A DNA stretch of 64,000 bases from Luteolibacter pohnpeiensis (lineage in GTDB: Bacteria; Verrucomicrobiota; Verrucomicrobiia; Verrucomicrobiales; Akkermansiaceae): assembly GCF_016595435.1 (NCBI RefSeq), contig NZ_JAENIJ010000019.1, positions 1 to 64,000 on the forward strand. Reading direction: 5' to 3'. Numbering within the stretch: the stretch's first letter is position 1; each line of letters opens with the position of its first letter. Below are positions 1,979-39,759 of this stretch, piece by piece. Both the position numbers and the translations under genes were made by a program. The notes beneath the pieces are model-generated. The model was not told the DNA's origin, searched no databases, and saw only the letters and a list, made by a program, of their open reading frames with translations.

Positions 1979-3487
1979 ATGCAATCAAACAATATTTCGT
2001 ATTTCAACGCACGATCAAAGCGATTGCTTCTTGCCACCCTAGGTCTCATTTGGGTGGTGAGATTGCTGATGCTCGCACAAATACCGCTCATCGACAATAG
2101 TGAGTCTCGTTATGCAGAAATGGCACGAAAGATGGCAGCAACCGGTGATTGGGTGACACCGAGATACATTGGAAATCAGCCATTCTGGGCTAAACCACCA
2201 CTATCCATGTGGTTATCTGGAGCTGGAATAAAATTATTCGGTGAGAATGAATTTGGTGCTCGAATTTTTATATTTCTAGCAAGCTGTGCCATATTGCTTT
2301 TGCTATACTCATGGATCAAAGGAATAAAAGGCAAGGACACGGCGCTCGCGGCCACATTCATTCTCGCCACATCGAGCGCCTTCGTCATTACCTCAGGGAC
2401 AGTCATGACTGACCTTCCGCTATGTGCCTCTACGACACTGGCAATGGTCGCTTACTGGCACGCAATTCATCGAAAATCAAAATGGTGGGGAATGGTTTTC
2501 TTTATTGCACTGGGATTGGGCATGCTCGCGAAAGGTCCAATCGCCCTGGTTTTAACAGCTCTGCCAATCGGGATCTGGCTGATTGGTAGTCGTCGCTTGA
2601 TTGAGGGCATCAAGTGTCTACCTTGGATCTCAGGGGTGCTTCTAGCATTGGCAATCGCCCTTCCGTGGTATGTTTTAGCAGAAATACGAACACCGGGTTT
2701 CCTCAACTATTTCATTATTGGTGAGCATTGGGATCGATTTTTGATCAAGGGTTGGAACGGCGATCTCTACGGGAATGCCCATTCAGAGCCACCAGGCACG
2801 ATCTGGTATTTTGGTTTGATCTCGCTGTTACCTTGGACGCTCATCATGCCCTATTTGATTTTCAAAATCCCCCGCGTCTTTCAAAATATCCAATCCGAGG
2901 AAAAGCCCTATTTGGGTTACCTGAGTGCATGGCTCGTATCACCTCTTCTCTTCTTCACTGCCGCGAGAAACATTATTCCAACTTATGCACTGACGGGAAT
3001 TCCAGCAGGAGCCATACTGTTTTTTGAACTTACTGCATTAACCAATGATAAAACGACCAACAGAATCGTGATCCGATACTTAAAATGGGGAGCCGCGGCA
3101 TCAACCATCCTCATCACATCGACGTGGCTGCTATTCTCCTATTTCCCGGATCGAATGCACAAGCAAAGTCAACGCGAAATGGTGAAATACATTGAAAGTC
3201 GAAGCGATCTCAAAGAGATACCACTATCCTATCGGGGCAAACCACTTTGCTCTGCTTGGTTTTATCGGAAAGGCCAGGTGAACTTTATCGATGATGAAGG
3301 CATTAAGAAATTATTCTGCAATCACCATCCCGATTTATTAGTCGTGCCAGCGAGAACAGACTCAGCACAACCACCTCTGATACATGATCATTTTACGCAA
3401 ATTGCAACAATTGGTCGGTTTAGCTTGATGCGAGAAAATGTGAACCAAAATTCCGACTTGGTTGCCGCTGAGAAAGGAAATCCTTGA
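1979..3487 (+). CDS. ArnT-like / GT39-family membrane glycosyltransferase
   Basis: 502 residues with many hydrophobic segments. The N-terminal loop carries an acidic motif followed by RYAEMARKM and then a WAKPPLSMW-type stretch. This is the hallmark first extracytoplasmic loop of the PMT/ArnT superfamily, which moves sugars from polyprenyl-phosphate carriers to lipid A or proteins. The acidic residues of the loop (D-N-S-E) are the likely catalytic/metal site. It is an isolated gene without arn neighbours, so neither 4-amino-arabinose nor any other donor can be claimed. It is visibly more AT-rich than genes beyond 9.4 kb. No strong ribosome-binding site precedes the chosen ATG. It converges on the RND operon. 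Confidence 0.82.
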   Translation: MQSNNISYFNARSKRLLLATLGLIWVVRLLMLAQIPLIDNSESRYAEMARKMAATGDWVTPRYIGNQPFWAKPPLSMWLSGAGIKLFGENEFGARIFIFLASCAILLLLYSWIKGIKGKDTALAATFILATSSAFVITSGTVMTDLPLCASTTLAMVAYWHAIHRKSKWWGMVFFIALGLGMLAKGPIALVLTALPIGIWLIGSRRLIEGIKCLPWISGVLLALAIALPWYVLAEIRTPGFLNYFIIGEHWDRFLIKGWNGDLYGNAHSEPPGTIWYFGLISLLPWTLIMPYLIFKIPRVFQNIQSEEKPYLGYLSAWLVSPLLFFTAARNIIPTYALTGIPAGAILFFELTALTNDKTTNRIVIRYLKWGAAASTILITSTWLLFSYFPDRMHKQSQREMVKYIESRSDLKEIPLSYRGKPLCSAWFYRKGQVNFIDDEGIKKLFCNHHPDLLVVPARTDSAQPPLIHDHFTQIATIGRFSLMRENVNQNSDLVAAEKGNP

Positions 3488-39120: not shown

Positions 39121-39684
39121 ATGGCTAGCACTCCTATCATCAACCTTCGCAAGGGACACGCCGTCCGCCACAACAACGAGGTCTGCCTCGTGATCGATCA
39201 CGAACTCAAGACCCCTCCACGGATGGCATCCTACGTTCAGATGTCGATCCGCAGCGTTGCCACCAAAAAGGTATTCAACCTCCGGTTGACCTCCAACGAT
39301 TCGATCGAAGGCGTGGTGCTCGAGAAAGTCCCTCACGAATATTCCTACAAGGACAGCAGTGGTTACCACTTCCTCAACCCGGAAACCTACGAAGACATGC
39401 TGGTGTTCGAGGATCTGATCGAGCCAGTGAAAAACTATCTCATCGACGGCCAAGTCTACACCCTTCTGATTGCCGACGGCATCGTGGTGTCGATCGATCT
39501 TCCGCTCACCATGACCATGACGGTTGCGGAAAGCTCCGAAGGCGTCAAAGGCGACTCCGCCAACAACGTCTACAAACCAGCAACCATGGAAACCGGCCTC
39601 GTGGTTCAGGTTCCATTGTTCATCAACGTCGGCGAAAAAATCAACGTGAAGACCGAAGACAATTCCTACCTCGGTCGTGCATGA
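39121..39684 (+). CDS. efp: Elongation factor P with atypical tip residue
   Basis: 187 residues from ATG 39121. The three EF-P domains are present: KOW-like N-terminus with the tip loop, the OB domain (MLVFEDLIEPVKNYLIDGQ), and the C-terminal OB domain (VYKPATMETGLVVQVPLFINVGEKINVKTED). EF-P binds ribosomes stalled on polyproline and speeds peptide-bond formation. Aligned without gaps to E. coli EF-P, the position of the beta-lysylated Lys34 is Arg34, in the loop KTPPRMASY rather than KPGKGQAF. Arg at this place is rhamnosylated by EarP in some bacteria, but no earP gene is next to it here. Strong terminators lie on both sides. Confidence 0.95.
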   Translation: MASTPIINLRKGHAVRHNNEVCLVIDHELKTPPRMASYVQMSIRSVATKKVFNLRLTSNDSIEGVVLEKVPHEYSYKDSSGYHFLNPETYEDMLVFEDLIEPVKNYLIDGQVYTLLIADGIVVSIDLPLTMTMTVAESSEGVKGDSANNVYKPATMETGLVVQVPLFINVGEKINVKTEDNSYLGRA

Positions 39685-39720
39685 TCTGAGATTCGAATAA
39701 TTTTTTTTGGTTTTCGTCTG

Positions 39721-39759
39721 AAAAGGCAACCCTTCACCGGGTTGCCTTTTTTGTTTTTC
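39721..39759 (+). terminator. Intrinsic terminator after efp
   Basis: AAAAGGCAACCC at 39721-39732 pairs with GGGTTGCCTTTT at 39739-39750 around the loop TTCACC, followed by TTGTTTTT. It lies 37 bases beyond the efp stop. Confidence 0.95.

Follow-up and report, generated by a model that had tools for sequence, protein, structure and literature searches.

The window is a stretch of 64,000 nucleotides of a Luteolibacter pohnpeiensis genome (4.67 Mb, 254 contigs, 98.8% complete). The gene under study, efp, sits between smc and a gene for a LysM protein, and its neighbours also include genes for an endonuclease/exonuclease/phosphatase, a YkuD L,D-transpeptidase and an M50 peptidase. The features of the locus are as follows.

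39121–39684, + strand: efp, elongation factor P, 187 aa (translation, Pfam, sole EF-P match in the genome, Foldseek).
39208–39234, + strand: tip loop K30-T-P32-P33-R34-M-A-S-Y38, the β3-Ω-β4 loop (gap-free alignment with E. coli EF-P, invariance).
39220–39222, + strand: codon CGG of Arg34, counterpart of E. coli Lys34 (sequence and alignment).
39720–39751, + strand: terminator-like hairpin of 13 pairs with a T-run, directly 3' of efp (consensus scan).

The consensus scan gave four terminator-like sites between 38900 and 39900, against 1.1 expected in shuffles. The hairpin after efp suggests that the gene is transcribed apart from the downstream LysM gene.

All three EF-P domains, PF08207 (EFP_N), PF01132 (EFP) and PF09285 (Elong-fact-P_C), scored above cut-off in the encoded protein, and it is the sole EF-P detected in its genome by profile search (one match each to PF01132 and PF08207). 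Among the NCBIfam models, NF001810 'elongation factor P' was passed with 178.2 (cut-off 161), and the EF-P equivalog TIGR00038 gave 179.3, 6.5 bits short of its cut-off of 185.8. An AlphaFold model calculated from an alignment of 40 sequences had a mean pLDDT of 86.6 and a pTM of 0.67. The best PDB matches found by Foldseek were EF-P structures, several with TM-scores of 0.84–0.88, including 6enj, EF-P on a polyproline-stalled ribosome (0.88), and 1ueb, Thermus EF-P (0.86); the scores against full-length EF-P chains ranged from 0.57 to 0.88. The predicted structure supports an EF-P fold and is silent on the stiffness or chemistry of the loop. In Verrucomicrobiales this protein serves as the housekeeping EF-P.

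The tip KTPPRMASY was matched, in an alignment of 111 rows, to VKPGK34GQAF of E. coli EF-P with identical numbering and, as the earlier note had claimed, without gaps. R34, P33 and P32 correspond to K34, G33 and P32 of the E. coli protein. The Lys that is modified in E. coli is thus replaced by Arg and the essential Gly33 by Pro, with Pro32 retained; translation and alignment uphold both substitutions that had been read from the sequence, Lys34 to Arg and Pro-Gly to Pro-Pro. The coordinates needed adjusting. The interval 39211–39240, to which KTPPRMASY had been assigned, lies on the loop and encodes TPPRMASYVQ, but K30 begins earlier, at 39208. A DNA pattern of the tip had a single match in the window, and 100 shuffles gave none. 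Among 40 non-redundant sequences (the window protein and 39 others, 61–91% identical to it), 48 of the 187 columns were invariant, and residues P32 to V39 (PPRMASYV) formed an unbroken invariant run. K30 was likewise invariant across the 40 sequences.

A search of a species-genome collection with a degenerate DNA pattern for PPRMASYVxM returned at least 112 stretches, at least 111 of which encode EF-P. All 111 listed EF-Ps contain PPRMASYV, which rules out a sequencing accident or a pseudogene; the one listed match without an encoded EF-P came from Paludifilum (L137). According to the record titles, 110 of the 111 belong to Verrucomicrobiota and one to a bacterium without assignment, and 96 are named to Verrucomicrobiales, including Akkermansia (42), Prosthecobacter (7) and Haloferula (3). 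Among the matches listed, the closest EF-P sequences were from metagenome-assembled genomes (90–91%), several titled Akkermansiaceae or Verrucomicrobiaceae, and Luteolibacter-titled records were 74–88% identical to the window EF-P.

EF-P was detected by profile search in 281 of 288 Verrucomicrobiota genomes. Tips were read at 110 loci from 104 of these genomes, chosen among the best-ranking matches by E-value: PPR-Arg in 30 genomes, RTPGN-Asn in 30, KPGK-Lys in 22, RTQGR-Arg in 10, RTPPN-Asn in 5, RTPGK-Lys in 5 and RTPGR-Arg in 1, with only an EfpL locus read in one further genome. The motif K[TC]PPRMASY was present at 30 of 30 loci (L003–L032) from the family and order of the window. Two genomes of the same family, in genus g4 (G237, G240), have RTPGK instead of PPR. 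The order is represented by 37 genomes; tips were read in 32, and the other five are four genomes with an EF-P match and G096, without one. The RTPGK tips inside families with other tips are possible replacements or reversions.

An EF-P tree, as proposed in the earlier note, was built without the tip columns after removal of rows more than 97% alike (96 of 111 left). The PPR rows formed one clade with support 100, nested in a class whose other tips read are mostly Asn (RTPGN), and the PPR tip is a clade trait of Verrucomicrobiales. The branch leading to the clade is long, at 0.78 changes per column. Four RTPGN rows lie nearest to it, in a 20-row group with support 95. An Asn tip ancestral to PPR was considered on the strength of these neighbouring rows, but the long branches were flagged and it is kept only as a lead. 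Two separate origins of Arg tips, in the PPR and in the QGR/PGR proteins, were also considered. The tree gives two changes, but a single origin is compatible with the AU test (p 0.566), and two origins are therefore not claimed; a single clade of all PGN rows was likewise compatible with it (p 0.38). The second Arg-tip type, RTQGRQAGF, was seen in ten genomes from three other families of the class (L034, L036, L038, L048, L051, L053, L055, L070, L079 and L081), in a phylum sample with no EarP match among 288 genomes.

Genes for the known tip-modifying enzymes were searched with profile models. The earlier note had found no earP next to efp, which the neighbour genes in the window confirm, and had proposed a search of the whole genome. 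EarP (PF10093) was detected neither in the window's own genome nor in any of the 288 phylum genomes. No control genome in this search gave a signal, so the model was tried on two plasmids annotated with earP beside efp. Both were matched strongly (E 5.5e-162 and 8.2e-152) while the window's genome stayed silent, and with this positive control an overlooked EarP was ruled out. These earP–efp pairs lie on plasmid-classed records, NZ_CP085705.1 from Pseudomonas sp. HN2-3 (L240) and NC_009035.1 from Shewanella baltica OS155 (L241).

For EpmA (TIGR00462), which the note had also named for a genome search, no match above cut-off was obtained in 93 genomes of the class, and 128 of the 288 phylum genomes had one; the two samples overlap. 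Among the matches listed above cut-off all were from other classes, and several adjoin efp (e.g. G142, G206, G216, G056 and G074). The top match in the window's own genome scored 193.2 bits against a cut-off of 286.9, and the best in the class reached at most 232 bits; the best class matches are presumably lysyl-tRNA synthetases. The deoxyhypusine synthase (DHS)-like family PF01916 was above cut-off in 47 of 288 phylum genomes, in none of the 30 PPR genomes with tips read, and gave no match in the window's genome. YmfI is a FabG-like SDR, beyond the power of family models to single out. A Pfam scan of 30 ORFs in the window revealed no evident cytosolic EF-P modifier; the same scan gave a membrane mannosyltransferase-like protein at 1979–3484.

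Genes beside efp were compared across the listed loci, 98 of the 112 including at least 700 nt upstream of efp. In 20 of the 112 (e.g. L130, L150 and L176), from close relatives of the window, efp is preceded at a distance of 66–150 nt by a same-strand gene identified as DUF5069 (PF16798, 37.4 bits against a cut-off of 27), which adjoins efp in the same-genus genomes G215 and G251 as well. In the window's own genome the DUF5069 copy is on another contig than efp. All 37 genomes of the order have the gene, and in the phylum sample overall 81 of 288 do. RTPGK, RTQGR and many RTPGN genomes are among its carriers, so its presence does not follow the tip type. As a candidate modifier encoded beside efp it was set aside, being widespread in the class whatever the tip, and is only a lead. 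The commonest neighbour besides DUF5069 was the LysM family, near efp in 30 of 111 listed loci. A family upstream of efp in 12 listed Akkermansia-type loci had no Pfam match.

The demand for EF-P was assessed from polyproline motifs. A DNA pattern for the ValS motif PPPNVTG was found in 36 of the order's 37 genomes, the exception being G184. The order's matches are known as a DNA pattern alone; four matches that were read, all outside the class, gave [IM]PPPNVTG.L..GH.LNN, which we take to be the expected ValS signature. Counts of Pro-Pro and Pro-Pro-Pro were taken from the window and from two PPR genomes (G251, G248; 160 kb sampled from each), in ORFs picked by length and codon-position GC, a selection that discards some real genes. 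Pro-Pro was at 0.89 of expectation in the window (30 against 33.8), 0.92 in G251 and 0.95 in G248, and Pro-Pro-Pro occurred 2, 15 and 22 times against 1.9, 7.3 and 10.2 expected. Three comparison genomes with other tips gave 0.94–1.11 for Pro-Pro, and 1, 10 and 24 Pro-Pro-Pro against 2.1, 8.4 and 11.8. With Pro-Pro near expectation, Pro-Pro-Pro at or above it and the ValS pattern kept, the lineage has not given up polyproline proteins and is likely to need EF-P. From these motif counts the EF-P is probably functional. Its synthesis may depend on itself, because the protein has a Pro-Pro of its own.

The EarP-type EF-Ps of Pseudomonas, Neisseria and Shewanella resemble the window protein in the Arg tip, the unextended loop and the EF-P fold. 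They differ from it in the residues before the tip, as the window loop has Pro32 and Pro33 and is without Gly33, and in the enzyme, for which the genome and the phylum sample gave no match. The rule applied for the EarP type, a Gly just before the tip and a residue other than Pro at the position before that, is from the cited passages of PMC6544042. According to these passages, 14.75% of 1166 EF-Ps have an Arg tip, and only 2.33% combine Arg with Pro32. They further report that in vitro rhamnosylation of the P. putida EF-P variants S30P and G31A was below 1%, that S30P had 4% activity even once modified, and that Pro32 bars rhamnosyl-Arg activation of E. coli EF-P; EarP overproduced in vivo modified E. 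coli K34R and P. putida loop variants. E. coli EF-P had only 20% activity as K34R and was inactive as G33A or G33S, and the Arg-type EF-P of P. putida was inhibitory without its modification. According to the same passages, no known EF-P modification enzyme is present in over half of bacteria.

The EpmA-type and the 5-aminopentanolylated (Bacillus) EF-Ps have a Lys tip where the window protein has Arg34, and the Arg tip also separates it from DHS-linked Asn/Lys-tip EF-Ps. EfpL (YeiP) has an Arg tip with a Pro upstream, but its loop is extended (SPTARGAAT, more than seven residues) and it is described as a paralog beside EF-P. The window protein has no insertion, is the sole EF-P of its genome and scored 109.5 bits with the yeiP model (cut-off 264), so that an EfpL taken for EF-P was ruled out. 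The EF-P of Thermus thermophilus also has an Arg tip, in the context Leu-Gly-Arg-Gly without Pro-Pro, and is 27% identical to the window protein in the Foldseek alignment. Actinobacterial EF-Ps with a stiffened loop reportedly have a Lys tip, and the window differs from them in its Arg and in an extra Pro before the tip. The idea of working unmodified through a stiffer loop is common to both, as far as the actinobacterial case (Pinheiro 2020) is described in the cited part of PMC11611912. The same part names stiffness or greater length as modification-free loop strategies and gives R33 of E. coli EfpL as unmodified by mass spectrometry. In the cited passages of PMC2821294, Arg32 of Thermus EF-P lies near the peptidyl transferase centre and contacts C75, and is described as an adaptation to the missing modification.

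None of the searched tip-modifying enzymes was detected, so the EF-P is probably unmodified or uses an undiscovered modification. The suggestion of an unmodified or differently modified EF-P class thus gains support, as the protein fits none of the EarP, EpmA, EfpL and DHS-linked Asn types; the PPR tip class of Verrucomicrobiales fits none of the searched modification systems, and Arg with Pro32 was earlier counted as a rarity. On balance, we favour with moderate confidence a modification-independent EF-P in which a Pro-Pro-stiffened loop presents a bare Arg. Verrucomicrobiales would use a bare Arg34 where E. coli adds β-lysine to Lys34 and Pseudomonas rhamnosylates Arg. The consecutive prolines P32–P33 would stiffen the loop and hold Arg34, and its guanidinium may touch the CCA end without modification. 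An unmodified Arg, stiffening of the loop by P33 and the sufficiency of both for activity are inferred. In the bold form of this proposal, the Pro-Pro-Arg loop would be a third modification-free EF-P design, the other two being the long loop of EfpL and the stiff loop of actinobacteria. The precedents of EfpL R33 and Thermus Arg32, as described in the cited parts of those papers, count for a bare Arg. The reported values for K34R, G33A and G33S and the inhibitory unmodified P. putida protein indicate, as far as the cited passages go, that a bare Arg or a residue other than Gly33 is poor in those proteins.

The searches would have come out no differently if an Arg-modifying enzyme outside the list of models were at work. 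In the main alternative, which we hold tentatively, Arg34 would be modified by a still-undiscovered enzyme unrelated to EarP and encoded elsewhere in Verrucomicrobiales genomes; the order, Akkermansia included, might then have an arginine EF-P activated by a new modification, with an enzyme that recognises the PPRMASY loop, which we likewise regard as the less probable case. The invariance from P32 to V39 would also be expected of an enzyme recognition site, and the weak activity of a bare Arg in E. coli EF-P and the large share of bacteria said to be without a known enzyme (both from the cited passages of PMC6544042) point the same way, as does the DUF5069 gene upstream of efp in the relatives of the window and throughout the order. 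Nevertheless, that gene does not track the tip and is on another contig in the window's genome, LysM is near efp at a minority of loci, and EfpL and Thermus EF-P are known bare-Arg factors. The invariant K30 could itself be a modification site. A modification on another residue such as Lys30, or one introduced by a YmfI-like, 5-aminopentanol-type pathway, is nevertheless unlikely, as K30 is four residues before the tip, at the position of E. coli V30, and the Lys modifications named in the cited papers are on the tip residue.

An EarP-type rhamnosylated EF-P, with EarP missed or too divergent to be detected, is very improbable. The Arg tip is as in Pseudomonas and Neisseria, and overproduced EarP accepted the E. 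coli K34R protein in vivo, but the PF10093 model found nothing in 288 genomes with its positive controls working. Moreover, the loop has Pro32 and is without Gly33, and, judging by the mutants equivalent to these residues in the cited passages, a Pro32/Pro33 loop is unlikely to be activated in the EarP manner. The polyproline function might also have been lost, with the tip serving something else, as the usual Lys34 and Gly33 are gone and the branch to the PPR clade is long. The invariant tip, the retained ValS pattern and the proline-motif counts given above argue against such a loss, which we consider quite improbable.

The case bears on how EF-P acts in bacteria for which no modification enzyme is known. 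The bare-Arg proposal concerns a well-delimited case: one clade that includes Akkermansia muciniphila, one invariant tip loop, and none of the searched modifiers detected. Comparison is possible with sister lineages whose tips are Asn or Lys, and the outcome would be either an Arg EF-P that works unmodified or a modification not seen before. A literature search found no description of a PPR-tip clade, a prior mention in Brewer and Wagner 2024 being possible; a search combining elongation factor P, Akkermansia and polyproline found no paper.

The same class holds a second testable lead, a DHS-like gene that matches Asn tips. Among class genomes with tips read, PF01916 was detected in all 30 RTPGN genomes and in none of the 50 others; the RTPGN proteins, which include the rows nearest to the PPR clade, differ from it in the Asn tip and in this gene (30/30 against 0/30 PPR genomes). 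The pairing amounts to one independent pair on well-supported branches and three on all branches, and is phylogenetically not significant. Lys-tip RTPGK proteins without a DHS-like gene were seen in two lineages, at L064 and L065 (G237, G240) and at L078 and L080 (G223, G286). The ValS pattern was absent from 7 of the 30 RTPGN genomes. Nine class genomes outside the order are without it (G008, G042, G054, G072, G078, G152, G166, G262 and G277), and the seven of these with tips read all have the Asn tip (RTPGN). The absence of the pattern from the nine hints at an altered dependence on EF-P.
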